From Pseudomonas helvetica (GTDB taxonomy: Bacteria; Pseudomonadota; Gammaproteobacteria; Pseudomonadales; Pseudomonadaceae), in the NCBI RefSeq assembly GCF_039908645.1, contig NZ_CP150917.1, positions 2,863,501 through 2,927,500 of the forward strand: 64,000 nt of DNA, read 5' to 3'. Below the pieces are notes generated by a model that was not told the origin of the DNA, did not search any database, and worked only from the letters and a program-made list of their open reading frames with translations. The translations under genes and the position numbers were made by a program. This document shows, in pieces, positions 2 through 29,824 of this stretch (position 1 is its first letter; every line of letters starts with the position of its first letter).

Positions 2-1642
2 CTGAACGCCTTGCTCAAGGCACCAGTGGATCTGTTGTGGAACGGCGGTATCGGTACGTACGTCAAAGCCAGCAGCGAAAGCCACGCCGATGTCGGCGAC
101 AAGGCCAACGATGCACTGCGCGTGAACGGCAACGAACTGCGCTGCAAAGTCGTGGGCGAGGGCGGTAACCTCGGTATGACCCAACTGGGTCGTGTCGAAT
201 TCGGTCTCAATGGCGGCGGCTCCAACACCGACTTCATCGACAACGCCGGTGGCGTGGACTGCTCCGACCACGAAGTGAACATCAAGATCCTGCTCAACGA
301 AGTGGTGCAGGCTGGCGACATGACCGAGAAGCAACGTAACCAGTTGCTCGGCAGCATGACGGATGAAGTCGGCGGTCTGGTTCTCGGCAACAACTACAAG
401 CAGACCCAGGCCCTGTCCCTGGCAGCCCGTCGCGCCTACGTGCGGATTGCCGAGTACAAGCGCTTGATGAACGACCTGGAAGGCCGTGGCAAGCTGGACC
501 GTGCCATCGAGTTCCTGCCGACCGAAGATCAACTGAACGAGCGCGTTGCGGCAGGCCATGGTCTGACCCGTGCCGAGCTGTCGGTATTGATCTCCTACAG
601 CAAGATCGACCTCAAGGAGCAGTTGCTCAACTCCCTGGTGCCGGACGACGACTATCTGACCCGCGACATGGAAACCGCTTTCCCGCCGATGCTGGTCAGC
701 AAGTTCTCCGAGGCCATGCGTCGTCACCGTCTGAAGCGTGAGATCGTCAGCACCCAGATCGCCAACGATCTGGTCAACCACATGGGTATCACCTTCGTTC
801 AGCGACTCAAAGAGTCGACCGGCATGAGCCCGGCGAACGTGGCCGGTGCGTATGTAATCGTGCGTGACATCTTCCATCTCCCGCACTGGTTCCGTCAGAT
901 CGAGGCGCTGGATTACCAGGTTTCGGCCGACGTACAACTGGAGCTGATGGATGAGCTGATGCGTCTGGGCCGTCGTGCCACTCGCTGGTTCCTGCGCAGC
1001 CGTCGCAACGAGCAGAACGCAGCGCGCGACGTCGCACACTTCGGTCCACATCTGGCAGCGCTGGGCCTCAAGCTCGACGAACTGCTGGAAGGTCCGACGC
1101 GCGAAGGCTGGCAGACTCGCTATCAGGCCTACGTCGCCGCTGGCGTACCCGAGTTGCTGGCGCGCATGGTTGCAGGCACCAGTCACCTGTACACCTTGTT
1201 GCCAATCATCGAGGCAGCGGACGTGACTGGCCAGAATGCAGCGGACGTGGCCAAGGCCTACTTCGCCGTGGGCAGCGCGTTGGACCTGACCTGGTACCTG
1301 CAACAGATCAGTGCTCTGCCGGTGGAAAACAACTGGCAAGCGCTGGCCCGTGAAGCGTTCCGCGATGACATCGACTGGCAGCAACGGGCGATCACCATCT
1401 CGGTCCTGCAAATGGGCAACGGCAAGCAGGACGTGGAAACACGTCTGGCCTTGTGGATGGACCAGAACCAGACCATGGTCGAGCGCTGGCGCGCCATGCT
1501 GGTGGACATCCGTGCCGCCAGCGGCACCGACTACGCCATGTACGCGGTCGCCAACCGCGAACTGCTGGACCTGGCGTTGAGCGGTCAAGCGGTGGTGCCT
1601 GTCACGGCCACTGCAATCGCTGAACTGGAGCCTGCTGCCTGA
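2..1642 (+). CDS. gdhB: NAD-specific glutamate dehydrogenase, C-terminal third (partial)
   Basis: This is the 3' end of the large (about 1,600-residue) NAD-dependent glutamate dehydrogenase that deaminates glutamate to 2-oxoglutarate. The open frame enters from the left edge, so the true start lies outside the window; about 546 residues are visible. The dehydrogenase-core signature APVDLLWNGGIGTYVKAS is at the very start, followed by GEGGNLGMTQLGRVEF and FIDNAGGVDCSDHEVNIK, which belong to the catalytic and nucleotide-binding part of the class. The remainder is the long helical C-terminal region typical of the 180-kDa type. A strong intrinsic terminator follows directly, so this gene ends its transcription unit. 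Family assignment is firm. Confidence 0.95.
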   Translation: MNALLKAPVDLLWNGGIGTYVKASSESHADVGDKANDALRVNGNELRCKVVGEGGNLGMTQLGRVEFGLNGGGSNTDFIDNAGGVDCSDHEVNIKILLNEVVQAGDMTEKQRNQLLGSMTDEVGGLVLGNNYKQTQALSLAARRAYVRIAEYKRLMNDLEGRGKLDRAIEFLPTEDQLNERVAAGHGLTRAELSVLISYSKIDLKEQLLNSLVPDDDYLTRDMETAFPPMLVSKFSEAMRRHRLKREIVSTQIANDLVNHMGITFVQRLKESTGMSPANVAGAYVIVRDIFHLPHWFRQIEALDYQVSADVQLELMDELMRLGRRATRWFLRSRRNEQNAARDVAHFGPHLAALGLKLDELLEGPTREGWQTRYQAYVAAGVPELLARMVAGTSHLYTLLPIIEAADVTGQNAADVAKAYFAVGSALDLTWYLQQISALPVENNWQALAREAFRDDIDWQQRAITISVLQMGNGKQDVETRLALWMDQNQTMVERWRAMLVDIRAASGTDYAMYAVANRELLDLALSGQAVVPVTATAIAELEPAA

Positions 1643-7072: not shown

Positions 7073-7294
7073 TCAAACCTCCAGATTCCCCCAACCCGGC
7101 CTGGCTTCTTCGGGTGCAACGGCTTTCACAGTCTTGCCCGTCGCCAACTCCACCCGCCGTGCCACTTCCGGGTCATCGGCAAACGGCATCAGACTGGCAT
7201 CTTCCAGGCTTTCGGCCGACTGATGCTTCAAGCAATACTCCACCGATAAATACAGGCACGCCACGCCCAACAGATCCAACATGACTTCGATCAT
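7073..7294 (-). CDS. CcoQ-like small membrane protein next to orphan ccoN
   Basis: A 73-residue protein with one N-terminal membrane helix (EVMLDLLGVACLYLSV) and a hydrophilic tail. Just after the helix comes SLEDASLMPFADDPE, which closely resembles the F-x-E-A-A-x-L-P-F-A-D-D motif that ends the membrane helix region of CcoQ, the fourth subunit of cbb3 oxidases. I chose the ATG with a GGGA site nine bases upstream. It is 57 bases downstream of ccoN on the same strand, with a hairpin between. The position corresponds to PA4134 beside ccoN4 in P. aeruginosa. That it works as a CcoQ-type subunit is inference from the motif and neighbour. Confidence 0.7.
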   Translation of the reverse strand: MIEVMLDLLGVACLYLSVEYCLKHQSAESLEDASLMPFADDPEVARRVELATGKTVKAVAPEEARPGWGNLEV

Positions 7295-7317
7295 GGCAAA
7301 CATTCCCTGAGGTGAGA

Positions 7318-7351: not shown

Positions 7352-8779
7352 TCAAGCGATCTGCGCTTCTTGCTCAGCGATTTTCAGGTCGGCGACCCGC
7401 ACGGTGCGCCAGGTGTTGTAAGCCATCAGCAGCATGCCGCTGAGGAAGAACACGCCGCCGACGAAACGCACAATGAAGCCAGGATGGCTGGCCACCAGGG
7501 TTTCGACGAAGGAATAGGTCAGCGTGCCATCGTCGTTGATGGCGCGCCACATCAGGCCCTGGGTGATGCCGTTGACCCACATCGAGGCGATGTACAGCAC
7601 GGTGCCGATGGTTGCGAGCCAGAAGTGCGTGTTGATCAGACTGATGCTGTACATCTGCTCGCGGCCAAAGACTTTCGGGATCATGTGGTACAGCGAACCG
7701 AAGGTGATCATCGCCACCCAGCCCAAGGCGCCGGCGTGTACGTGGCCGATGGTCCAGTCGGTGTAGTGGGAGAGGGCGTTGACGGTTTTGATCGCCATCA
7801 TCGGCCCTTCGAACGTCGACATGCCGTAGAACGCCAGCGACAGCACCAAGAACCGCAGAATCGGGTCGGTGCGCAACTTATGCCAGGCGCCCGAGAGCGT
7901 CATCATCCCGTTGATCATCCCGCCCCAGCTCGGCGCCAGCAGGATCAGCGACATCGCCATGCCCAGCGATTGCGCCCAGTCCGGCAGTGCGGTGTAGTGC
8001 AAGTGGTGTGGGCCGGCCCAGATGTACAGGGTGATCAGCGCCCAGAAATGCACGATCGACAACCGATAGGAATACACCGGCCGGCCGACCTGTTTCGGCA
8101 CGAAGTAATACATCATCCCGAGGAAGCCGGTAGTCAGGAAGAAGCCCACTGCGTTGTGCCCATACCACCACTGCACCATCGCATCGGTGGCCCCGGAATA
8201 CACCGGATAGGACTTGAACCAGTCCACCGGAATCGACAGGTGATTAACCACGTGCAGCATGGCGATCACCACAATGAACGCACCGAAGAACCAGTTGCCG
8301 ACGTAGATGTGCTTGGTCTTGCGCTGCACCACTGTGGTGAAGAACACAATGGCGTAGGCGACCCAGACCACCGTCATCCACACCGCGCCGGAGAACTCGA
8401 TCTCGGCGTATTCCTTGGTGGTGGTGTAGCCCAGGGGGAGGGTGATCAGCATGCTGACGATCACCGATTGCCAGCCCCAGAAGGTGAAGGCGGCGAGTTT
8501 GTCGCTGTACAGTCGCACCTGGCAGGTGCGCTGAACCGCGTAGTAGCTGGCGGCAAATTGTGCGCTGCCGGCAAAACCGAAAATCACCAGGCTGGTGTGC
8601 AGCGGGCGCAAGCGACCAAAGGTGGTCCAGGGCAAATCGAGGTTCGCCTCCGGCCACACCAGTTGCGAGGCGATCCACACGCCCATCGCCATCCCGATAA
8701 CACCCCATACCACTGTTGCCACGACGAATTGGCGGACGACCTTGTAGTTATAGGCCTGTCCGATTGCTGCTGTGCTCAT
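7352..8779 (-). CDS. ccoN: Orphan cbb3-type cytochrome c oxidase catalytic subunit CcoN (CcoN4-like)
   Basis: A 475-residue heme-copper oxidase subunit I with about twelve membrane helices. Visible ligands are [12 protein letters not shown] (low-spin heme His), [20 protein letters not shown] (CuB His), [13 protein letters not shown] (CuB His pair) and [12 protein letters not shown] (heme His residues). No ccoO or ccoP gene follows, so it must pair with O and P subunits encoded elsewhere, as orphan CcoN proteins of P. aeruginosa do. The siroheme reductase and DUF934 neighbours match the PA4133 (ccoN4) locus, whose product supports respiration under cyanide. The start is the ATG with GGAAG seven bases upstream. 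The upstream region carries an Anr-like box and a module shared with ccoG. Confidence 0.92.
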
Positions 8780-8862
8780 GGTCAATGCTTCCACGGTTGC
8801 AAAGTCTTGCCAGGCCACCCGGTCTGGCATGCGGTCAACTGTAGAAACCCTGGTCGAAACAA

Positions 8863-8900
8863 AACAGACTCAGAAAAACTGCATTAATGCGGATCAGATG
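8863..8900 (-). promoter_or_regulatory. Bipartite promoter module shared with ccoG, overlapping an Anr-like box
   Basis: On the plus strand the block AACAGACTCAG (8863-8873) is separated by 15 bases from GCGGATCAGATG (8889-8900). Both blocks and the 15-base spacing recur at 29787-29824 upstream of ccoG. Within this copy TTAAT-GCGG-ATCAG (8884-8897) matches 8 of 10 positions of the Anr/Fnr half-site consensus. It lies about 85-120 bases upstream of the ccoN start codon. Confidence 0.65.
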
Positions 8901-9043
8901 TAAGGCCTGCCTGCGGTGATCTGCCGCGCCCTGATATGGTTTTTTAGTCTTTAGCTGAATCTGTAACCACCTGAGCCGCTACTGCATAGTCACTCCCCCA
9001 GAAACGAGCCGCAGAGCCCGATCAACCCTGATGAGGTAGCGAC

Positions 9044-10717
9044 ATGTATCAGTACGATGACTATGACCGGGCCCTGGTCTTTGAACGGGTTGCGCAGTTC
9101 CGCGATCAGGTCGAGCGGTTCATGGCTGGAGCCTTGAGTGAGGAAGAGTTTTTGCCGTTGCGCCTGCAGAACGGCCTGTACATGCAAAAGCACGCCTACA
9201 TGCTGCGGGTGGCCATTCCTTACGGCACCCTGAGCGCCCGGCAGATGCGTACGCTGGCGAGCATCGCCCGGGATTACGATCGGGGTTACGGGCACTTCAC
9301 CACCCGACAAAACATGCAATTCAACTGGATCGAACTGGCCCAGGTGCCGGACATCCTCGAGCGCCTGGCCCAGGTCGAAATGCATGCGATCCAGACCTCC
9401 GGCAACTGCGTGCGCAACATCACCACCGAAGCCTTTGCCGGGGTGGCGGCCGATGAGCTGATCGATCCGCGGCCCTTGGCGGAAATCCTCCGGCAGTGGT
9501 CGACCATCAACCCCGAATTCCTGTTTTTGCCACGTAAATTCAAGATCGCCATCTGCTCGGCGGAACAGGACCGTGCGGCGATCATGATGCATGACATCGG
9601 TCTCTACCTTTACCGCGACGCGGCAGGGCAGATGCTGCTGCGGGTGATCGTTGGCGGCGGTCTGGGGCGCACACCGATCCTCGGTTTGCAGATCCGTGAA
9701 GGATTGCCGTGGCAGCATTTGCTGTCCTACGTCGAGGCGGTGTTGCGGGTCTACAACCGCCATGGTCGACGTGACAACAAGTACAAGGCGCGGATCAAGA
9801 TTCTGGTCAAGGCGCTGGGCATCGAGGCCTTCGCCCAGGAAGTCGAACAGGAGTGGCAACACCTCAAGGACGGCCCGGCGCAGTTGACCGACGTCGAATA
9901 CCAGCGCGTCGCCAGCGCGTTCGTGCCGCCCACCTATGCGCCACTGGCCGACACCGACCTGGACTTCGGTACTCGCCTGACCGAGAACCCGGCATTCGCG
10001 CGTTGGGTTGCGCGTAACGTGCAGCCGCACAAAGTACCTGGCTACACCAGCGTGGTGCTGTCGACCAAACCTGGCATGGCCTCGCCACCCGGTGATGTCA
10101 CCGATGCGCAGATGGACGCGGTGGCCGACTGGTCCGAGCAGTTCGGTTTCGGCGAAATCCGCATTGCCCATGAACAGAACATTGTCCTGCCGGACGTGCC
10201 CAAGTCTGACCTGTACGCGTTGTGGTGCCTGGCCTGCGAGCATGGACTGGGCTGCGCCAATATCGGTTTGCTGACGGACATCATTGCCTGCCCCGGCGGC
10301 GATTTCTGCGCGCTGGCCAATGCCAAATCGATCCCCATCGCCCAAGCGATTCAGGCACGTTTCGATGACCTGGATTACCTTCACGACCTGGGTGACATCA
10401 GCCTCAACATTTCTGGCTGCATGAATGCCTGTGGTCATCACCACATCGGCAATATCGGCATTCTCGGCGTCGATAAGAATGGCAGCGAGTGGTACCAGAT
10501 CACCCTCGGTGGATCACAGGGCAAGAACAGCGCGTTGGGCAAGGTCATCGGTCCGTCGTTCAGCGCCGCCGAAGTACCGCAAGTGATCGAGCGGATCATC
10601 GCGACCTTTGTCCGTTACCGCGAGAGCGAAGAACTGTTTGTCGACACCTTGCAGCGCATCGGTCTGGAGCCGTTCAAGGAGCGCGTTTATCCCAAGAGCC
10701 TGGAGGTCGTTGCATGA
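9044..10717 (+). CDS. Nitrite/sulfite reductase, siroheme [4Fe-4S] type (PA4130-like)
   Basis: A 557-residue protein of the ferredoxin-type nitrite/sulfite reductase family. It has the substrate/siroheme motif FTTRQNMQFNWIE and the four cluster cysteines as C416-x5-C422 (ACPGGDFC) and C459-x3-C463 (SGCMNAC). These bind the coupled siroheme-Fe4S4 that carries six-electron reduction of sulfite to sulfide or nitrite to ammonia. No flavoprotein partner gene lies nearby, so electrons would come from ferredoxin or another donor. The stop overlaps the start of the DUF934 gene by four bases. Which of the two substrates is used cannot be decided here. It is divergent from the orphan ccoN, and the 264-base gap holds the shared promoter module. 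Confidence 0.93.
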   Translation: MYQYDDYDRALVFERVAQFRDQVERFMAGALSEEEFLPLRLQNGLYMQKHAYMLRVAIPYGTLSARQMRTLASIARDYDRGYGHFTTRQNMQFNWIELAQVPDILERLAQVEMHAIQTSGNCVRNITTEAFAGVAADELIDPRPLAEILRQWSTINPEFLFLPRKFKIAICSAEQDRAAIMMHDIGLYLYRDAAGQMLLRVIVGGGLGRTPILGLQIREGLPWQHLLSYVEAVLRVYNRHGRRDNKYKARIKILVKALGIEAFAQEVEQEWQHLKDGPAQLTDVEYQRVASAFVPPTYAPLADTDLDFGTRLTENPAFARWVARNVQPHKVPGYTSVVLSTKPGMASPPGDVTDAQMDAVADWSEQFGFGEIRIAHEQNIVLPDVPKSDLYALWCLACEHGLGCANIGLLTDIIACPGGDFCALANAKSIPIAQAIQARFDDLDYLHDLGDISLNISGCMNACGHHHIGNIGILGVDKNGSEWYQITLGGSQGKNSALGKVIGPSFSAAEVPQVIERIIATFVRYRESEELFVDTLQRIGLEPFKERVYPKSLEVVA

Positions 10718-11208
10718 ATAATCTGCTGCGGTTGGAAGATGGTGCTGCGCTTAAGGTCGACGACGATCCGTGGACCCTGGTCAGGGACCTGGAAAGCCAA
10801 CTGCCAGCGGGGCCGCTGATTTTGCCGCTGGCTCTGTGGCTGACCCGCCGTACTGAACATCATCCGTCACGAGACGCGGTGTGGTTGGGGCCGGATGACG
10901 AGGTCGACAGTCTCAAGCCGTGGCTCAAGCTGATACCCATGATCGCGCTGGAGTTTCCAAGTTTTCGCGATGGTCGGGCTTACAGCCAAGCTTACCTGTT
11001 GCGCACGCGTTTGGGTTGGGCGGGGGAGTTGCGGGCGATTGGCGATGTGCTGCGCGACCAGCTCAGCCATATGCGCCAATGCGGTTTCGATGCGTTCGCG
11101 GTGCGTGAAGACAAATGCGCTGAAGATGCCCTGAAGGGGCTGGTGGGGATGAGCGTGCATTACGGTCGCTCGGTGATCGAGCCACGACCGTTGTTTCGCC
11201 GACGCTGA
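10714..11208 (+). CDS. DUF934 family protein, partner of the siroheme reductase
   Basis: A 164-residue protein starting inside the reductase gene's last codons (ATGA overlap), so the two are translationally coupled. It shows the family's typical blocks [48 protein letters not shown], starting with the PSF-x-DGR-x-YS signature, and ends with YGRSVIEPRPLFRRR. DUF934 genes accompany cysI/nirA-type reductases throughout proteobacteria and are often described as sulfite-reduction accessory proteins; the molecular role is not established. No signal peptide; presumably cytoplasmic with the reductase. Confidence 0.88.
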   Translation: MNNLLRLEDGAALKVDDDPWTLVRDLESQLPAGPLILPLALWLTRRTEHHPSRDAVWLGPDDEVDSLKPWLKLIPMIALEFPSFRDGRAYSQAYLLRTRLGWAGELRAIGDVLRDQLSHMRQCGFDAFAVREDKCAEDALKGLVGMSVHYGRSVIEPRPLFRRR

Positions 11209-14185: not shown

Positions 14186-14318
14186 CATTTGTGCTTCAGT
14201 GCCTTAGCAAAAAATCGCAAAAGCAGGCTGAAGGTAAATTGCCGGTAAAGGCGCTTTGCTTCAATGCCGTCAGTGCTTATCGTTCACTCTCCCGTATAAA
14301 GATGCCCACACGCGCCCA

Positions 14319-15641
14319 ATGGTTGATCATTCCATGCAATCCTCTGCTTCCCGTCATCCCCGTCGCTGGCTATTTGGCCTGCTGGTCCTGTTGGTCATTG
14401 CCGGCCTGTGCTGGAAGTTCTGGCCAGGCGGTACGGCTCACAAAGACGCCCCAGTAGCTAAAGCGGCGGCGGGGCATGTCGGCAAGTCTGGCGGGATGCG
14501 TCCGGGTTTTGGTGGCGCCACAGGACCGGTCCCGGTTCGGGTCGCGCCTGCTGTCGTGGGTGATTTCCCGCTCTATTACAAAGCGCTGGGCACGGTCACT
14601 GCGCTGAACACCATCAATGTGCGCAGCCGTGTGGGCGGTGAACTGGTGAAGATTGCGTTTGAAGAAGGGCAAATGGTCAAGGCAGGCGATCTGCTCGCCG
14701 AGATCGACCCGCGCCCTTACCAGAACGCCTTGCTGCAAGCCGAAGGCACGTTGCTGCAGAACCAGGCACAGTTGAAAAACGCGCAGGTGGATCTGGAACG
14801 CTATCGCGGTTTGTATGCGCAAGACAGTATCGCCAAACAGACCCTCGACACCGCAGCTGCGCTGGTGGGGCAGTACCAGGGCACGGTCAAGACCAATCAG
14901 GCGGCGGTCAACGACGCCAAACTCAATCTGGAATTCACCAGGATCCGTGCGCCGATTACCGGGCGTGTCGGTCTGCGGCAGCTGGACGTTGGCAACCTGG
15001 TGTCCGCCAATGACACCACGTCCCTGGCGGTCATTACCCAGACCCAGCCGATCAGCGTGGTCTTTACCTTACCGGAAAACACGCTCGATACCGTGCTGAC
15101 CCGCTACCACTCCGGTGCCAAACTGCCGGCTGAAGCCTGGGATCGTGGCGATACCAAAATGCAGGCCAGCGGCGTCTTGCAAAGCCTCGACAACCAGATC
15201 GACACCACCACCGGCACACTGAAGTTCAAGGCACGCTACGACAATCGCGATCTGGCACTGTTCCCGAATCAGTTCGTCAACGTCCGACTGCTGGCCGACA
15301 CCCTCAAGGGCGTGGTGCTGGTGCCTTCGGCAGCCGTTCAGTTTGGCACCAACGGCACCTTTGCCTATGTCCTGGACGGTGACAAGAAAGTCACCATTCG
15401 CCCGTTGAAGATCGGTGCCAGCGATGGTGACAACACGGTGATCCAGGAAGGCTTGAAAGCCGGTGATCGCGTGGTTCTGGAAGGCACTGACCGCCTCAAG
15501 GAGGGCAGTGAAGTCGAGGTGGTCAACGACAGCAGTAATGTCGCCCCCGCGACCCCGACCCCGACCGAAAGCCAGGACCCATCGACCAACGCCACGACTG
15601 ATCCGAAAGCCACCGGCAAGGCGCACAAGGGTCGCGCATGA
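14319..15641 (+). CDS. muxA: RND efflux periplasmic adaptor MuxA (MdtA family)
   Basis: The 440-residue membrane fusion protein links the inner-membrane RND pumps MuxB/MuxC to the outer-membrane channel. It has one N-terminal membrane anchor ([21 protein letters not shown]), the lipoyl half-motifs ([35 protein letters not shown] and [25 protein letters not shown]), an alpha-hairpin between them, a beta-barrel and a C-terminal Ala/Pro/Thr-rich tail. No strong ribosome site is visible. I use the ATG at 14319, but 14334 is equally possible. Its last four bases overlap the muxB start. The MuxABC-OpmB system is known to export drugs such as novobiocin and macrolides in P. aeruginosa. Confidence 0.9.
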
Positions 15642-18600
15642 ACATCTCGCGGCTGTTTATCCTTCGCCCGGTAGCCACCACCCTGAGCATGCTGGCCATC
15701 GTTTTGGCCGGCATGATTGCCTACAAGTTGCTGCCGGTCTCGGCATTGCCTCAGGTCGACTACCCGACCATTCGGGTCATGACCCTGTACCCGGGCGCCA
15801 GTCCGGATGTAATGACCAGTGCGGTGACTGCGCCACTCGAGCGCCAGTTCGGGCAAATGCCCGGCCTGACCCAAATGGCCTCGACCAGTTCCGGCGGCGC
15901 CTCGGTGCTGACCCTGCGCTTCAGCCTCGACATCAACATGGACGTCGCCGAGCAGCAGGTGCAGGCGGCGATCAACGCGGCGACCAATCTGTTGCCCAAG
16001 GACTTGCCCGCTCCACCGGTGTACAACAAGGTCAACCCGGCGGACACCCCGGTGCTGACCCTGGCGATCACCTCCAAAACCATGCTGCTACCCAAACTCA
16101 ATGATTTGGTCGACACGCGCATGGCGCAGAAAATCGCCCAGATCAGTGGCGTCGGCATGGTCAGCATCGCCGGCGGCCAGCGTCAGGCCGTGCGGATCAA
16201 GGTCAACCCGGAAGCCCTGGCGGCCAACGGCTTGAACCTGTCGGACGTACGCACCTTGATCGGCGCGTCCAACGTCAACCAGCCCAAAGGCAACTTCGAC
16301 GGCCCGACCCGGGTCTCGATGCTCGATGCCAACGATCAGTTGACCTCGCCCAAGGACTACGCCGAACTGATTCTGGCCTACAAGAACGGCGCGCCGTTGC
16401 GACTCAAGGACGTCGCGCAGATTGTCGATGGCGCCGAAAACGAACGCCTCGCTGCGTGGGCCAATGAAAACCAGGCTGTGTTGCTGAATATCCAGCGCCA
16501 GCCGGGTGCCAACGTGATCGAGGTGGTCGACCGGATCAAGGCCCTGTTGCCGAGCATCACCGACAACCTGCCGGCTGGCCTCGACGTTACCGTGCTGACC
16601 GACCGTACCCAGACCATCCGCGCGTCCGTCACCGACGTGCAGCACGAATTGCTGATCGCCATCGCCCTGGTGGTGATGGTGACGTTCCTGTTCTTGCGCC
16701 GGGCCAGCGCCACGATCATTCCGTCGATTGCCGTGCCGTTGTCGCTGATCGGCACCTTCGGCGTGATGTACCTGGCCGGTTTTTCGGTCAACAACCTGAC
16801 CTTGATGGCGTTGACCATTGCCACCGGTTTTGTGGTGGACGACGCGATCGTCATGCTGGAAAACATTTCGCGCTTCATCGAGGAGGGCGACAGCCCGTTG
16901 CAGGCGGCGCTCAAGGGCGCCAAGCAGATCGGTTTCACCCTGATATCGCTGACCTTGTCGCTGATTGCGGTATTGATTCCACTGTTGTTCATGGCCGATG
17001 TAGTGGGGCGGCTGTTCCGCGAGTTTGCGATTACCCTGGCGGTGGCGATCCTGATTTCCCTGGTGGTTTCGCTGACCCTGACGCCAATGATGTGCGCGCG
17101 GCTGCTCAAGCGTGAACCCAAGCCAGAAGAACAGGGCCGCTTCTACCGGGCCAGCGGTGCGTGGATCGACTGGCTGATCGCCGCCTACGGGCGCAAGTTG
17201 CAGTGGGTGCTCAAGCATCAGCCGCTGACCTTGCTGGTGGCCGTCGCTACCCTGGGCCTGACGGTGTTCCTGTACATCGTGGTACCCAAGGGCTTTTTCC
17301 CGGTGCAGGACACCGGGGTAATCCAGGGTATTTCCGAGGCGCCGCAGTCGATTTCCTTCGCCGCCATGAGCCAGCGCCAGCAGGAGCTGGCCAAGGTCAT
17401 CCTGGCCGATCCGGCGGTGCAAAGCCTGTCGTCCTATATCGGAGTCGACGGCGACAACGCGACCCTCAACAGCGGGCGCTTGCTGATCAATCTCAAGCCG
17501 CACAAAGAGCGTGATCTGAGCGCGGCCCAGGTGATCAGCCGGTTGCAGCCGCAGCTGGACAAACTGGTGGGCATTCGTCTGTTCATGCAGCCGGTGCAGG
17601 ACCTGACCATCGAAGACCGGGTCAGCCGCACACAGTACCAATTCAGCATGTCGTCGCCGGATGCCGAGATGCTCAGCCTGTGGAGCGGGCGACTGGTCGA
17701 GGCGCTGCGCAAACAACCCGAGCTGACCGACGTTGCCAGTGATTTGCAGGACAAGGGCTTGCAGGTCTATCTGGTGATCGACCGTGACGCGGCTTCGCGA
17801 ATCGGCGTTTCGGTGTCGAACATCACCGACGCGCTGTACGACGCTTTTGGCCAGCGCCAGATCTCGACCATTTACACCCAGGCCAGCCAATACCGCGTGG
17901 TGATGCAGGCACAGGACGGCGAAAAGATCGGCCCGCAGGCGCTGGAGCAGATTCACGTCAAGACCACCAATGGCGGCCAGGTGCGGCTGTCCAGCCTGGC
18001 CCACGTCGAAGAGCGCCAGGCGCAATTGGCGATTGCGCACATCGGCCAGTTCCCGGCAGTGATGATGTCCTTCAACCTCGCGCCCGGCGTGGCGTTGGGG
18101 CAGGCCGTCGAGCTGATCAACAAGGTGCAGCAGGACATCGGCATGCCGCTTGGCGTGCAGACTCAGTTCCAGGGTGCGGCCCAAGCGTTCGAAGCCTCGC
18201 TGTCGAGTACCTTGCTGCTGATTCTAGCGGCGGTGGTGACCATGTACATCGTGCTCGGCGTGCTGTACGAGAGCTACATTCACCCGATCACCATTCTCTC
18301 GACGCTGCCATCGGCGGCGGTCGGCGCCTTGCTGGCGTTGATTCTCAGCGGCAACGACCTGGGCATGATCGCGATCATCGGCATCATCTTGCTGATCGGC
18401 ATCGTCAAGAAGAACGCGATCATGATGATCGACTTCGCCCTCGACGCCGAGCGTAATCAGGGCATGGACCCGGCGACCGCGATTTATCAGGCGGCGCTGC
18501 TGCGTTTCCGGCCAATCCTGATGACCACCCTGGCCGCGTTGTTTGGCGCGGTGCCGTTGATGCTCGCCACTGGTTCGGGGGCCGAACTGCGCCAGCCATT

Positions 18601-18742
18601 GGGTCTGGTGATGGTCGGTGGCCTACTGGTGAGCCAGGTGCTGACGCTGTTTACCACGCCGGTGATCTATCTGTACTTCGACCGCCTCGGTCGGCGCTGG
18701 CGACGTGCGCCTGAGCGCCTGGAGCCGGTAGAGCAGCCATGA
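15638..18742 (+). CDS. muxB: RND efflux pump subunit MuxB
   Basis: A 1,034-residue RND transporter of the MdtB type that forms a hetero-multimer with MuxC. It begins [18 protein letters not shown] and has twelve membrane helices in two repeats, each with a large periplasmic loop. The proton-relay aspartates are D401 and D402 in [16 protein letters not shown] (helix 4), and helix 10 carries [14 protein letters not shown] with the relay lysine. It is translationally coupled to muxA and muxC by ATGA overlaps, so all subunits are made from one mRNA. Length and motifs are complete. Confidence 0.95.
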
Positions 18743-21700
18743 ACCTGTCCGGACCTTTCATTCGCCGGCCGGTAGCGACGATGCTGCTGAGCCTGGCGAT
18801 CATGTTGCTGGGCGGTGTGAGTTTCGGCTTGCTGCCGGTGTCGCCGCTGCCGCAAATGGATTTCCCGGTGATCGTGGTGTCGGCGAGCCTGCCGGGCGCG
18901 AGCCCCGAGGTCATGGCCTCCACCGTGGCGACGCCGCTGGAGCGATCCTTCGGCGCCATCGCCGGGGTTAACACCATGAGCAGCCGATCCAGCCAGGGTT
19001 CGACCCGGGTAATCCTGCAATTTGACATGGACCGCGACATCAATGGCGCGGCGCGAGAAGTGCAAGCGGCGATCAACGCCTCGCGCAACCTGCTGCCCAG
19101 CGGTATGCGCAGCATGCCGACCTACAAGAAGGTCAACCCGTCCCAGGCGCCGATCATGGTGCTGTCGCTGACCTCGGATGTACTGGAAAAAGGTCAGCTT
19201 TATGACCTGGCCTCGACCATCCTTTCGCAAAGCCTGTCTCAAGTGCCCGGTGTCGGCGAGGTGCAGATTGGCGGCAGTTCGTTGCCGGCAGTGCGCATCG
19301 AGCTTGAACCGCAACTGCTGAACCAGTACGGCGTGGCGCTGGATGATGTACGCAACACCATCGCCAACGCCAACGTGCGCCGGCCCAAGGGTTCGATCGA
19401 AGACGACCAGCGGATGTGGCAGCTCCAGGCCAACGACCAGTTGGAGAAGGCCAAGGATTATGAACCGCTGATCATTCGCTACCAGAATGGCTCGGCGTTG
19501 CGCCTGGGCGATGTGGCCAAGGTTCGCGACAGCGTCGAAGACCGCTACAACAGCGGTTTCTTCAACGATGACGCGGCGGTGCTGTTGGTGATCAACCGCC
19601 AGGCCGGCGCCAACATCATTAAAACGGTCAACGATATCAAGGCGCAGTTGCCGGCGTTGCAGGCGGTGTTGCCGGCCAGCGTCAAACTGAACCTGGCGAT
19701 GGACCGTTCACCGGTGATCAAGGCGACCTTGCACGAAGCGGAAATGACCCTGCTGATTGCCGTGGCGCTGGTGATTCTGGTGGTCTACCTGTTCCTCGGT
19801 AACTTCCGCGCGTCGTTGATCCCGACGCTGGCGGTACCGGTGTCGTTGGTCGGTACGTTCGCGGTGATGTACCTCTATGGCTTTTCGCTGAACAACCTGT
19901 CGCTGATGGCGCTGATTCTGGCCACGGGGCTGGTGGTGGACGATGCCATCGTGGTGCTCGAAAACATTTCGCGGCACATCGACGAAGGGATCGCGCCGAT
20001 GAAGGCGGCGTACCTGGGCGCCAAGGAAGTCGGTTTTACCCTGCTGTCGATGAACGTCTCGCTGGTGGCGGTGTTCCTGTCGATTCTGTTCATGGGCGGG
20101 ATCATCGAGAGCCTGTTCCGCGAGTTTTCGATCACCCTGGCGGCGTCAATCGTGGTGTCGCTGGTGGTCTCGCTGACCCTGACGCCGATGCTCTGTGCCC
20201 GCTGGCTGAAACCCCACACGCCAGGTGAAGAAAACCGTTTGCAGCGCGCCAGTCGGCGCGCCAACGACTGGATGGTCAAGCACTATGCCAGCGGCCTGGA
20301 TTGGGTGCTGCGTCACAAGCGGCTGACGCTGCTCAGCCTGTTTGTCACCATTGGCGTCAACATCGCCTTGTATGTGGTGGTGCCCAAAACGTTCCTGCCG
20401 CAGCAGGACACCGGTCAACTGATCGGTTTTGTCCGCGGCGACAATGGCCTGTCGTTCAACGTCATGCAGCCGAAAATGGAAACCTTCCGCCGCGCGGTGT
20501 TGAAAGACGCGGCGGTGGAAAGTGTCGCCGGTTTTATCGGCGGGACCAACGGCACCAATAACGCTTTCATGCTGGTACGCCTGAAGCCGATCAAGGAACG
20601 CAATATTTCTGCGCAGAAGGTCATCGAACGCCTGCGCAAGGAAATGCCCAAGGTCGCCGGTGCCCAATTGATGTTGATGGCTGACCAGGACTTGCAGTTT
20701 GGCGGTGGCCGCGAGCAGACCACCTCGCAATACACCTACATCCTGCAAAGCGGCGATTTATCGGCGTTGCGCGAGTGGTATCCAAAGGTCGTCACCGCAC
20801 TCAAGGCATTGCCTGAACTGACGGCCATCGACGCCCGCGAAGGGCGAGGTGCCGCGCAGGTGACACTGGTGGTCGATCGTGACCAGGCCAAACGCCTGGG
20901 TGTCGACATGTCGATGGTCACCGCGGTGCTGAACAACGCTTATAGCCAGCGCCAGATCTCGACCATTTACGACAGCCTCAACCAGTATCAGGTGGTGATG
21001 GAGGTCAATCCGAAATACGCCCAGGACCCGATCACCCTCAATCAGGTCCAGGTGATTACTGCTGCCGGCGCGCGCATTCCGTTGTCGGCAATTGCCCACT
21101 ATGAAAACAGCCTGGAAAACGACCGGGTCAGCCATGAAGGGCAGTTCGCGTCCGAGAGCATCTCTTTTGATATGGCCGAAGGCGTCACCGTTGAACAAGG
21201 CTCGGCCGCCATCGAACGGGCGATTGCCAAGCTGGGGTTGCCGGAAGAAGTGATCGCCAAGATGGCCGGCACTGCCGACGCTTTCGCGGCGACCCAGAAG
21301 AGTCAGCCGTGGATGATTCTCGGTGCGCTGGTGGCGGTGTATCTGGTGTTGGGCGTGCTGTACGAAAGTTACGTGCACCCGCTGACCATCCTCTCGACGT
21401 TGCCTTCGGCAGGTGTCGGTGCGTTGTTGTCGATCTATGTGCTGGGCGGCGAGTTCAGCCTGATTTCGCTGCTCGGGCTGTTTTTGCTGATCGGCGTGGT
21501 GAAGAAAAACGCCATTCTGATGATCGACCTCGCGCTACAGCTTGAGCGCCATCAGGGCATGGAACCGCTGGAGTCGATTCGCAGTGCGTGTCTGTTGCGT
21601 CTGCGGCCGATTCTGATGACTACCCTGGCGGCGATTCTGGGCGCCTTGCCCTTGTTGCTCAGCACCGCCGAAGGCGCGGAAATGCGCCAGCCATTGGGCC

Positions 21701-21846
21701 TGACCATTATCGGCGGGTTGATTTTCAGCCAGGTGCTGACGCTTTTCACCACCCCGGTGGTTTACCTCTACCTCGACCGTTTGCGCCATCGGGTCAACCG
21801 CTGGCGTGGGGTTCGTACCGATGCTTCTCTGGAAACTCCGCTATGA
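18739..21846 (+). CDS. muxC: RND efflux pump subunit MuxC
   Basis: A 1,035-residue RND transporter of the MdtC type, paralogous to MuxB. The start [18 protein letters not shown], proton-relay D401/D402 in [16 protein letters not shown] and helix-10 [15 protein letters not shown] are all intact. In the MdtBC/MuxBC type the two different pump proteins assemble together; in E. coli one carries out proton translocation and the other drug binding. The gene overlaps muxB and the outer-membrane gene by four bases on each side. Nothing suggests damage. Confidence 0.95.
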
Positions 21847-25970: not shown

Positions 25971-26717
25971 ATGGACAAAGTCATCGTTATCACTGGCGGC
26001 AGTCGCGGTATCGGCGCTGCTACGGCGCTCCTGGCGGCTGAGCAGGGCTATCGAATCTGCATCAACTACCAGGCCGATGAGCAGGCTGCGCAACAGGTCC
26101 TCGAGCAAGTCCGCGCGCTCGGCGCCCAGGCGATTGCGGTGCGCGCTGACGTCAGCATCGAAGATGAAGTGATCAGCCTGTTCCATCGCGTCGACACCGA
26201 GCTGGGCCGAGTCACCGCACTGGTGAACAACGCCGGCACCGTCGGACAAAAGTCGCGGGTCGATGAAATGTCCGAATTCCGCATTCTGAAAGTCCTGAAA
26301 ACCAATGTCCTGGCGCCGATTCTCTGCGCCAAGCATGCACTGCTGCGCATGTCACCCAGACACGGCGGGCAGGGCGGCAGCATCGTCAACGTCTCCTCGG
26401 TCGCCTCGCGCCTCGGCTCGCCGGGTGAATACGTCGACTACGCAGCCTCCAAGGGTGCGCTGGATACGTTCACCATCGGCCTGTCCAAGGAAGTCGCCGG
26501 CGAAGGCATCCGCGTCAATGCCGTGCGTCCCGGCTACATCTACACCGACTTCCATGCCCTGAGCGGCGATCCGGATCGGGTCAGCAAGCTTGAATCGGGC
26601 ATTCCCATGGCCCGCGGCGGCCGCCCGGATGAAGTGGCCGAGGCGATTATCTGGCTGCTGTCGGACAAGGCTTCTTATGCGACCGGGACCTTTGTTGATT
26701 TGGGTGGCGGGCGTTAA
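25971..26717 (+). CDS. Short-chain dehydrogenase/reductase (SDR)
   Basis: A 248-residue classical SDR with the cofactor motif TGGSRGIGAAT at residues 8-18, NNAG in ALVNNAGTVG, the active-site Ser in VNVSSVASRLGS and the catalytic YAASK tetrad motif. The C-terminal end GTFVDLGGGR is typical of the FabG-like group. The basic Arg in the glycine motif and the NYQADE segment after strand 2 suggest NADP(H) preference, which is inference. Substrate unknown. A GGGGGGA site precedes the ATG. It is convergent with the MocR gene, their stop codons overlapping by four bases. Confidence 0.88.
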   Translation: MDKVIVITGGSRGIGAATALLAAEQGYRICINYQADEQAAQQVLEQVRALGAQAIAVRADVSIEDEVISLFHRVDTELGRVTALVNNAGTVGQKSRVDEMSEFRILKVLKTNVLAPILCAKHALLRMSPRHGGQGGSIVNVSSVASRLGSPGEYVDYAASKGALDTFTIGLSKEVAGEGIRVNAVRPGYIYTDFHALSGDPDRVSKLESGIPMARGGRPDEVAEAIIWLLSDKASYATGTFVDLGGGR

Positions 26718-28123
26718 AAAGATCGCACAATCCTGCCTAAGGTCTCCATGGCCTTTTCGGTATCCTCGGTCCACGGGCTGCCGTAGTTCAAGCGAATACA
26801 ATTCCTGAAGCGCTGGGTCGGTGAAAAGATCGGTCCCGGTGCAATGCTGATGCCTTGGGCCAATGCCATCTGGAACAACTTCAACGAATCCATCTGCGAG
26901 GGCAATTCCAGCCACAGGAAGTAACCTCCGGCCGGCTGGCTGACGCGGGTCTGGGCCGGGAAGTAGCGGGCGATGGCCGCGAGCATGGCGCTTTGCTGTT
27001 CTTCGAGGGCGTAGCGCAGTTTGCGCAGGTGGCGGTCGTAACCGCCGTGTTGCAGGTAATCGGCGATTGCCGCCTGGGCCGGCATCGAGGCGCAGAGCGA
27101 AGTCATCAGTTTCAGCCGTTCAATTTTCTGCGCATAACGCCCGGCGGCGACCCAACCGATGCGGTAACCGGGCGCGAGGCTCTTGGCGAAGGACCCGCAG
27201 TGCATCACCAGCCCTTCGGTGTCGAAGGCTTTGGCCGGTTTCGGTGCTTGCTGGCCGTAATAGAGCTCGGCGTAGACATCGTCCTCGATCAGCGGCACCT
27301 GATGGCTGCGCAACAACTCGACCAGTTCCTGTTTCTTGGCCTCGGGCATGGTTGCGCCCATGGGGTTCTGGAAACTGGTCATGCACCAGCAGGCTTTGAT
27401 CGGATGGCGCTCGAGGGTTTGCGCCAACACGCCGAGGTCGATGCCGTCGCGCGGGTGCACGGGAATTTCCACGGCTTTGAGTTTGAGTCGCTCAAGCACT
27501 TGCAGGCTGGCATAGAACGCCGGGGCTTCGATGGCCACCAGGTCGCCGGGTTCGGTGACCGCTTGCAGGCACAGGTTCAGCGCTTCGAGCGCGCCGTTGG
27601 TGATCAGCAGTTCTTCCATGGGCAGCATCAGGCCGCCGACCATGTAGCGCAGGGCGATTTGCCGACGCAATTGCGGATTGCCCGGCGACATGTCGGTCAC
27701 CACCATGCGTGGGTCCATTTCCCGGGCGGCACTGGCCAGCGAGCGTGACAGGCGTTGCAGTGGAAACAGCGTCGGGCTCGGGAAGGCCGAGCCGAAGGGT
27801 ACGGTGTTCGGGTCCTTGATCGAGTCGAGTACCGAGAACACCAGTTCGCTGACGTCGACTTCGGTGGATTCGCTGACCTGGCTGCTGATCACCGGCTCCG
27901 AGAACGGGCTCGGCGCGTGGGTGTTGACGAAGTAGCCGGAGCGCGGCCGGGCGCGGATCAGCCCGCGACGCTCCAGCAGGTAATAAGCCTGAAACACTGT
28001 GGACGGGCTGACCCCGTAAGTCTGGCTGGCGTAACGCACCGAGGGTACACGCTGGCCTGGGCCGAGCACCCCGGAGCGGATCAGTTCAGCAATGTCGTCA
28101 GCGAATTTTTCGTAGCGTTTCAT
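26714..28123 (-). CDS. mpaR: MocR-type regulator resembling MpaR (PA4132)
   Basis: A 469-residue GntR-aminotransferase fusion. The winged helix is at the N terminus (YEKFADDIAELIRSGVLGPG, VPSVRYASQTYGVSPSTVFQAYYLLERRGLI), and the PLP lysine is in HCGSFAKSLAPGYRIGW. In P. aeruginosa the gene between a ccoG-like gene and ccoN4 is PA4132, MpaR, which activates ccoN4 during cyanide production. Here the gene lies beside a ccoG-like gene in the same orientation, but ccoN is 18 kb away. The gene name is therefore by resemblance and partial synteny, not proof. The PLP site and HTH look functional. Confidence 0.72.
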   Translation of the reverse strand: MKRYEKFADDIAELIRSGVLGPGQRVPSVRYASQTYGVSPSTVFQAYYLLERRGLIRARPRSGYFVNTHAPSPFSEPVISSQVSESTEVDVSELVFSVLDSIKDPNTVPFGSAFPSPTLFPLQRLSRSLASAAREMDPRMVVTDMSPGNPQLRRQIALRYMVGGLMLPMEELLITNGALEALNLCLQAVTEPGDLVAIEAPAFYASLQVLERLKLKAVEIPVHPRDGIDLGVLAQTLERHPIKACWCMTSFQNPMGATMPEAKKQELVELLRSHQVPLIEDDVYAELYYGQQAPKPAKAFDTEGLVMHCGSFAKSLAPGYRIGWVAAGRYAQKIERLKLMTSLCASMPAQAAIADYLQHGGYDRHLRKLRYALEEQQSAMLAAIARYFPAQTRVSQPAGGYFLWLELPSQMDSLKLFQMALAQGISIAPGPIFSPTQRFRNCIRLNYGSPWTEDTEKAMETLGRIVRSF

Positions 28124-28313: not shown

Positions 28314-29726
28314 TCAACGATTCAACGGTGCAACAAAACGGCTCTGTGCCACGCTGTTCACTGAAGGTTCATCGCTGTCAGTGATCTTGAAGCTGATCGT
28401 CTGCGAGCTGCTGCTCGGCTTGTCGGTGGTCATGGCCACTGAAACAGGCACATCGACAATTTCTCCCGGCGCCAGGCTCAACTCGGTCTTGCCCTGTAAC
28501 TGGAAGCCGTCGCCGTCCACCAGAGACAAGCGATAGTCCTGCCGCTGCTGGGTTTTGTTGATGACTTTGAGGCTGTAGATGTTTTCGATCTGGCCCTGGC
28601 TGTTTTCGCGAAACAGGCCACGGTCCTTGCTGACGTCCAGCGATACCATCGACCGCTCCATCAGCGCCAGCGTCAGTGCACCAATCATTACCACCAGCAC
28701 CGCGGTGTAGCCGATCAACCGAGGCCTGAGCAGGTGCGTCTTGCCACCTTGCAACTCATGCTCGGAGGTGTAGCTGATCAGGCCACGGGCATAGCCCATT
28801 TTGTCCATGATCGAATCGCAGGCGTCGATACATGCCGCGCAACCAATGCACTCCATCTGCAAGCCGTCGCGAATGTCGATGCCGGTCGGGCAGACCTGCA
28901 CACACAGGTGACAGTCGATGCAATCGCCCAGACCCGCGTCGGCAGGCTTCACCTCGCGTTTGCGCGGGCCACGGCTTTCGCCACGGGCGGCGTCGTAGGA
29001 GATGGTCAGCGTGTCTTTGTCGAACATCACGCTCTGGAACCGTGCATACGGACACATATGCATGCACACCGCTTCTCGCAGCCAACCGGCGTTGATGTAG
29101 GTCGCGCCGGTGAAGAACAGCACCCAAAACAGACTGACGCCGCCCATTTGCAAGGTCAGCAACTCATTGGCCAGCGGACGGATCGGCGTGAAGTAGCCGA
29201 CAAACGTCAGTCCCGTCAGCACGCTGATGGCCAGCCACATCGTGTGTTTGGCGGAGCGACGCAGCAGTTTGTTCAGGCCCCAGGGGGCGGCTTGCAGTTT
29301 GATCCGCTGATTGCGCTCGCCCTCGGTGACCTTTTCGCACCACATGAACAGCCAGGTGAAGGAACTCTGCGGGCAGGTGTAGCCACACCAGACTCGCCCG
29401 GCGAACACGGTGATTGCGAACAGGCCGAAGGCGCAGATGATCAGCAGCGCCGAGAGCAGGATGAAATCCTGCGGCCAGAAGGTCGCGCCGAAGATGTGGA
29501 ATTTGCTTTCCGACAAGTCCCAGAGCACCGCCTGCCGGCCGCCCCAGTTCAGCCAAACAGTGCCGAAAAACGCCAGGAACAGAAACCCCGCGCCGCTCAG
29601 GCGCAAGGTGCGGAACAAACCGGTGAAGCTGCGGGTGTGAATCTGGTTGTCGCTGGATTTGGCCTTCATCTTTGGACGCGAAGGCTCGAATGTCTCTACT
29701 AATCGGACGGGGATTCTATCGCTCAT
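28314..29726 (-). CDS. ccoG: CcoG-like polyferredoxin, cytochrome c oxidase accessory protein
   Basis: A 470-residue inner-membrane protein with about five helices, two ferredoxin-type [4Fe-4S] motifs (CIDCHLCVQVCP and CIGCAACIDACD) and a C-terminal soluble FixG-type domain. The CGYTCPQSSFTWLFMWCEK segment is also characteristic. CcoG is reported to reduce copper for delivery to the binuclear centre of cbb3 oxidases. No ccoH, ccoI or ccoS follows, so this is a second, orphan copy as in the PA4131 locus. The exact start among three in-frame ATGs (29762, 29750, 29726) is unsure. The shared promoter module lies just upstream. Confidence 0.9.
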   Translation of the reverse strand: MSDRIPVRLVETFEPSRPKMKAKSSDNQIHTRSFTGLFRTLRLSGAGFLFLAFFGTVWLNWGGRQAVLWDLSESKFHIFGATFWPQDFILLSALLIICAFGLFAITVFAGRVWCGYTCPQSSFTWLFMWCEKVTEGERNQRIKLQAAPWGLNKLLRRSAKHTMWLAISVLTGLTFVGYFTPIRPLANELLTLQMGGVSLFWVLFFTGATYINAGWLREAVCMHMCPYARFQSVMFDKDTLTISYDAARGESRGPRKREVKPADAGLGDCIDCHLCVQVCPTGIDIRDGLQMECIGCAACIDACDSIMDKMGYARGLISYTSEHELQGGKTHLLRPRLIGYTAVLVVMIGALTLALMERSMVSLDVSKDRGLFRENSQGQIENIYSLKVINKTQQRQDYRLSLVDGDGFQLQGKTELSLAPGEIVDVPVSVAMTTDKPSSSSQTISFKITDSDEPSVNSVAQSRFVAPLNR

Positions 29727-29786
29727 GGTCTTTCGCTCATCAGCCTCCATCAGGCCGATCAACTATGACCACCGAACTGTTTGCAT

Positions 29787-29824
29787 AACAGACTCAGGTA
29801 TTGGATTAAAAAGCGGATCAGATG
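29787..29824 (-). promoter_or_regulatory. Bipartite promoter module shared with ccoN
   Basis: AACAGACTCAG (29787-29797), 15 bases, then GCGGATCAGATG (29813-29824): the same two blocks at the same spacing as upstream of ccoN. In this copy GCGGATCA also pairs with TGATCCGC at 29831-29838 as an inverted repeat. The Anr-like right half seen at ccoN is lost here, so the conserved part is not simply an Anr box. Confidence 0.65.

Follow-up and report, generated by a model that had tools for sequence, protein, structure and literature searches.

A two-block module that occurs twice, letter for letter, in the 64 kb of Pseudomonas helvetica DNA analysed here (the window) is best explained as an operator-promoter unit controlled by MpaR, a MocR-type activator whose full activity in P. 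aeruginosa depends on cyanide; we put the probability of this reading at about 0.85. The module, AACAGACTCAG-N15-GCGGATCAGATG, is exact at 8863-8900 and at 29787-29824, in the same orientation and with a 15-base gap in both places, upstream of the minus-strand genes ccoN and ccoG. Its sequence on the transcribed strand, in the direction of ccoN and ccoG, is CATCTGATCCGC-N15-CTGAGTCTGTT. An earlier sequence-only reading had described two blocks with equal spacing and orientation and 23 fixed bases in all, and had proposed them as a candidate MpaR site. The description was exact for the window, and the assignment is probably right, judging from the ATCTGAT that the module contains, its family-wide conservation and its co-occurrence with mpaR. 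The two copies stand, but not as a pair alone, since a third, degenerate copy lies before nirA at 8928-8964. The module is a regulon-wide operator rather than a two-copy curiosity, and it turns a 7-bp motif from one species into a complete description of operator and promoter, constant spacing included, that can be used for reading MpaR targets from sequence across Pseudomonadaceae.

The module is rare. With up to 3 mismatches allowed, a search of the window returned the 2 exact copies and nothing further, and 100 dinucleotide-preserving shuffles of the window returned 0 matches. The same tolerance (≤3 of 23 positions) gave 2 matches in the entire genome (6,437,446 bases in 1 contig), while the reversed pattern, searched genome-wide as a control, gave 0. 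Commonness elsewhere in the genome, which the sequence-only reading had named as one finding that would refute its proposal, was not observed.

In the window, the ccoN copy (minus strand; 0 of 19 core mismatches) is the putative MpaR-type operator of a gene for a ccoN4-like cbb3 oxidase catalytic subunit (7352..8779, minus strand; TIGR00780, 718.9 bits against a cut-off of 583), which is followed by a small ORF that is ccoQ4-like by position and appearance (7073..7303, minus strand). A predicted -10 element, TACAGT (8838..8843, minus strand), starts 56 bp downstream of the initial A of ATCTGAT. The likely start of ccoN is the ATG at 8779; the start of a longer ccoN ORF, at 8830, would coincide with the predicted transcription start. 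The second exact copy (minus strand; 0 of 19 core mismatches), the putative operator of ccoG-mpaR, has a predicted -10, CATAGT, at the same offset (29762..29767, minus strand), and it precedes ccoG, which encodes a cbb3 oxidase accessory protein (28314..29726, minus strand, with the likely ATG at 29726; TIGR02745, 564 bits, cut-off 317), and mpaR (26714..28123, minus strand). Back to back with the ccoN operator stands the putative operator of nirA, GCCCTGATATGG...GCTGAATCTGT (plus strand; 4 of 19 core mismatches), which has CCCTGAT instead of the ATCTGAT that is exact at the ccoN and ccoG copies, and a predicted -10, CATAGT (8985..8990, plus strand), again at the offset seen at ccoN. The nirA gene is divergent from ccoN and encodes a nitrite/sulfite reductase-like protein (9044..10717, plus strand; PF01077 and PF03460) for which none of the NCBIfam families listed (25 of 73) scored above cut-off; a gene for a DUF934 protein follows it (10714..11208, plus strand; PF06073; ATG start). 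The starts of the ccoN and nirA operators were 65-66 bp apart in all 16 loci where both were scored, in a sample of 20 loci, 19 of them selected through one of the two sites. The genes nirA, ccoG, mpaR and ccoN adjoin in several other genera (loci L115, L116 and L122); in the window the cluster is split over ~20 kb, each part with its own operator. At 14256-21846 (plus strand), in the interval that separates the ccoN-nirA part of the regulon from the ccoG-mpaR part, we observed an efflux-adaptor-like ORF and two ORFs of ~1035 aa, which by appearance have the size of RND pumps.

The operator is bipartite, consisting of a distal half, CATCTGATCCG, and, at constant spacing from it, a proximal half, YCTGA-RTCTGTT; the spacer between the halves usually holds a T run. 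The -35/-10 promoter consensus served as reference for the promoter boxes. Counted from the first base of ATCTGAT, the -10 occupies +56..61; A57 and T61 are invariant among 90 distinct ccoG promoters and likewise among 14 ccoN promoters, and among 42 nirA promoters ~62% fit the +56 offset and ~38% seem shifted one base further. Because the -10 lies at +56, the proximal half overlaps the place of the -35, which at these promoters has no good TTGACA. By arithmetic from the -10 position, transcription is predicted to start ~62 bp past the last base of ATCTGAT. Copies of TCTG at 0, +24 and +30 have the look of direct repeats, with a match to ATCTGAT of 5.1/7 at +24 and 4.8/7 at +30 compared to a mean of 1.8 over offsets. 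Since ATCTGAT reads almost the same when inverted, an inverted reading of these repeats still scores 4.1 and 3.8 of 7, and their orientation is thus not certain. At ccoG, the true gap gave a mean of 0.82 mismatches, compared to 7.0-8.4 at gaps 1-4 off and ~9 in shuffles; the stretches compared had been selected using the true gap. The rise to 7.0-8.4 led us to reject other spacings of the two blocks. The text of PMC5320631 describes direct boxes separated by two or three helical turns as common in MocR operators, and cytochrome oxidases as frequently regulated by MocR factors. The repeats at +24 and +30 are similar to the spaced boxes of the GabR, TauR and PdxR operators described there, but the sequence differs and one box here is possibly inverted.

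Both core and gap recur before orthologous genes of many genera. From 80 loci fetched by MpaR similarity alone (including P. nitroreducens, P. citronellolis, P. delhiensis and P. panipatensis; P. aeruginosa was not among them), 74 ccoG, 30 nirA and 2 ccoN promoters could be scored. The 19-position core was present with 0-3 mismatches in 74/74 ccoG promoters, with 4 or fewer in 29 of the 30 nirA promoters and 5 in the other one, and with 1 in both ccoN promoters. When loci picked by pattern and the window itself were added, the counts became 93/93 for ccoG (0-3 mismatches), 46/46 for nirA (0-5) and 14/14 for ccoN (0-2). In such a comparison, which the sequence-only reading had suggested for Pseudomonas genomes, the core stood before ccoN, ccoG and nirA across Pseudomonadaceae.

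At ≤3 mismatches of 20, the site was found in 279 of 298 genomes of the genus, compared to 8 with a match to the reversed pattern, and in 79 of 119 genomes of the family, representing 15 of 19 genera. Among 186 genomes from other families of the order, no site had 0-1 mismatches, all matches having 2 or 3. Two 3-mismatch matches in one genome of another family (G434:C33:2592-2628 and G434:C43:7876-7912) resemble real operators, which suggests that the range of the operator may extend beyond Pseudomonadaceae. MpaR orthologues (best E-value 1.7e-192 or lower) were detected in 288 of the 298 genus genomes. The site was absent in 7 of the 10 mpaR-less genomes, several of which are incomplete, compared to 12 of the 288 mpaR-positive ones (Fisher p = 1.4e-7); when only mpaR-less genomes at least 99% complete were counted, it was absent in 3 of 5 (p = 0.001). 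Weaker sites are present in at least two of the 12 mpaR-positive genomes that gave no match (G031 and G136). Three genomes, G167, G206 and G240, hold the site without an MpaR orthologue; in the latter two the assembly is fragmented or incomplete. G167 (290 contigs, 100% complete, no MpaR orthologue in the assembly) has kept the operators of ccoN, nirA and the microprotein gene described below (G167:C283:22220-22321 and G167:C253:45798-45834); its lack of mpaR may reflect an assembly gap or a real loss.

The regulator adjoining ccoG, which the sequence-only reading had called MpaR-like, is indeed 89-92% identical to relatives that carry the name MpaR at NCBI. This GntR/MocR-type protein combines a GntR helix-turn-helix (PF00392) with an aminotransferase-like domain (PF00155) and has retained Y284 and K314, positions that were changed in the study of P. 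aeruginosa MpaR (PMC10790758). The NCBIfam families listed (25 of 73) include no MpaR model, and the best was PdxR with 263 bits, below the cut-off of 320. For P. aeruginosa, the text of PMC10790758 places ATCTGAT 61-62 bp upstream of the starts of ccoN4, the ccoG orthologue and nirA, and reports that shuffling of ATCTGAT abolished ccoN4 expression, that ccoN4 requires MpaR, with cyanide required for full expression, and that both ccoN4 and ccoG-type promoters depend on MpaR. By its authors' statement, this evidence for MpaR and ATCTGAT does not come from in vitro tests; an earlier in vitro MpaR motif, at mvfR, is described there as GC-rich and as obtained with truncated protein. The P. aeruginosa mpaR mutant had 275 changed genes (PMC10790758), far more than these operators explain. 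In the same text, the motif before PA14_10540 is given once as 'ATGNCAT' and elsewhere as ATCTGAT, probably a text slip.

The system in the window is similar to the MpaR- and cyanide-inducible PA4129-PA4134 cluster of P. aeruginosa in its regulator family, in its targets (ccoN4, ccoG-mpaR and nirA) and in having ATCTGAT within the distal block, at a distance from the predicted start that agrees with the published one. It differs in having a second block at a fixed gap, whereas the text of PMC10790758 describes ATCTGAT alone and, figures apart, does not contain 'ctgag', 'half-site' or 'bipartite'. It also differs in that the cluster is split and in having a microprotein gene as an added member of the putative regulon. 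The operator described here fills out a site that was already known in part, and the microprotein target is the new part within the searches made.

Taking together the sequence, spacing, conservation, -10 position and co-occurrence, which were read directly from the genomes, we infer that an MpaR dimer would span the distal and proximal halves in contact with both, and that it would probably bend the T-rich spacer between them. The dimer could then meet RNA polymerase at the -35 in a class II-like mode of activation, holding the polymerase at weak promoters. Cyanide-modified PLP may switch MpaR on, as the P. aeruginosa authors propose (PMC10790758). MpaR would thereby activate ccoN4Q4, ccoG-mpaR, nirA and the microprotein gene, and its action at the ccoG-mpaR operator would constitute positive feedback.

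A MocR paralogue could act in place of MpaR at some operators, for example at that of the microprotein gene, where the proximal block is often CTGCNTCTGT. Genomes of the genus usually carry further MocR relatives with E-values over 1e-100, the closest being 38-42% identical to MpaR in the genomes examined, and G167 has kept its operators without an MpaR orthologue. However, the operator adjoins mpaR, precedes known MpaR targets and co-occurs with MpaR, the microprotein operator shares the gap and the -10 offset, and the MpaR dependence published for the P. aeruginosa ccoN4 and ccoG-type promoters (PMC10790758) likewise speaks against a paralogue, which we regard as quite improbable. A further account, that the two copies are a chance repeat or a recent functionless duplication of promoter DNA, has a negligible likelihood. 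One duplication event could yield two identical 23-base copies in one genome, but the sequence of the 15-base gap differs between the copies, and core and gap persist at orthologous genes in many genera; a chance repeat is ruled out by the rarity of the module, the conserved core and gap, and the near-absence of close matches in other families.

The consensus of the Anr box is TTGAT-N4-ATCAA. At the ccoN copy, where the box CTGATCCGCATTAA overlaps the distal MpaR half, Anr could act in addition to MpaR, and low oxygen and cyanide would then be read together; we consider this unlikely. The Anr-like box of the ccoN copy in the window has 2/10 mismatches to the consensus, and relatives have 2-5. 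In 20 ccoN loci, mostly close relatives and chosen by the site, the best or joint-best Anr-like box (2-3/10 mismatches) lay inside the distal block in 19 promoters, and a 2-mismatch box was present in 14, compared to ~1.7 expected from shuffles. The nirA promoters, from the same intergenic regions, had a 2-mismatch box in 9 of 16 cases, compared to 0.8 expected. The corresponding place in 10 distinct ccoG versions has 4-5 mismatches, so that some feature here is peculiar to ccoN, which speaks for the possible role of Anr raised in the sequence-only reading. On the other hand, no promoter has a perfect Anr box (2-5 mismatches in 17 distinct ccoN versions), the left half of the box is the MpaR motif itself, and 2-mismatch boxes are frequent in the window, with 47 matches compared to 17.5 expected. 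In P. aeruginosa, deletion of anr left ccoN4 unchanged in planktonic cells and caused a small drop in biofilms, according to the text of PMC10790758.

Several of the genus-wide site matches face a conserved 27-aa ORF (consensus MxKMAIFLGGFLxLTIxIGLLATISPx) instead of a long gene. In this genome (G000), the single-helix ORF lies outside the window at G000:C1:4016874-4016954 on the minus strand (loci L044, L065 and L111), with a putative operator, AACTGATCCGTATTTT...ATCTGCTTCTGT, at 4017018-4017053. A profile from 14 members detected the ORF in 231 of the 298 genus genomes; in the family draw it was found in 6 of 13 own-genus genomes and in 0 of 106 from other genera. We took 77 loci by the ORF, not by the site, and scored 75 of them (36/36 and 39/41, L244 and L127 being unscored), representing 74 genomes of which four were sources of the profile seed. 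All 75 had the operator core with 1-5 of 19 mismatches (4 or fewer in 73). The best scores in shuffled upstream sequence were 5-9 mismatches, and a single 5-mismatch locus therefore proves nothing. An ACAAT-like -10 was seen at about the usual offset in most of the loci displayed. The ratio pN/pS was 0.24 in frame compared to 1.07 and 2.14 in the shifted frames (71 distinct sequences); by this measure the ORF is under protein-level selection, as a protein-coding gene would be.

The product is read as a membrane microprotein with a single helix, and its best 19-residue stretch has a mean hydropathy of 2.4. The family gave no match in Pfam and two matches in PDB, neither of them meaningful; in NCBIfam, NF040912 stayed below its cut-off (17.8 of 35 bits for the first member) and reached 7 of the 14 profile members at an E-value of 1 or less. 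Our literature searches found no paper with peptide strings of the family and no small-protein paper tying one to Pseudomonas MpaR. The gene is apparently unannotated and, within the searches made, an apparently new putative MpaR target. The operator thus points to a conserved microprotein gene, seemingly of the cyanide response, that is missing from the family libraries searched. Small subunits of terminal oxidases provide an analogy for such a protein. One of them, CcoM, has 36 aa (PMC10433244). Like CcoM, the 27-aa protein is very small and is placed with a cbb3 oxidase, in its case by the operator; it has no Pfam or meaningful PDB match, and the likeness is one of analogy. From this analogy and the putative regulon, our guess is that it may be a small subunit or stabiliser of a cyanide-tolerant oxidase. 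We tentatively propose, at less than even odds, that MpaR controls this protein through the same bipartite operator, and that the protein, which within the searches made is confined to one Pseudomonas lineage, serves either the CcoN4 cbb3 oxidase or a different respiratory complex as a cyanide-induced small subunit or stabiliser.

A putative transporter gene is a possible fifth target, on the strength of its upstream DNA. A related site, ATCTGATCYGCA...CAGCTAAGTCTTT, was observed at G000:C1:2572777-2572813 on the plus strand (L042/L066) and also in loci L273-L281. It has a GACAAT -10 at the usual offset and precedes a gene that by appearance encodes an HAAAP-type amino acid transporter. Across 10 loci with sites of this type, nine of them picked by pattern, conservation begins sharply at ATCTGAT.
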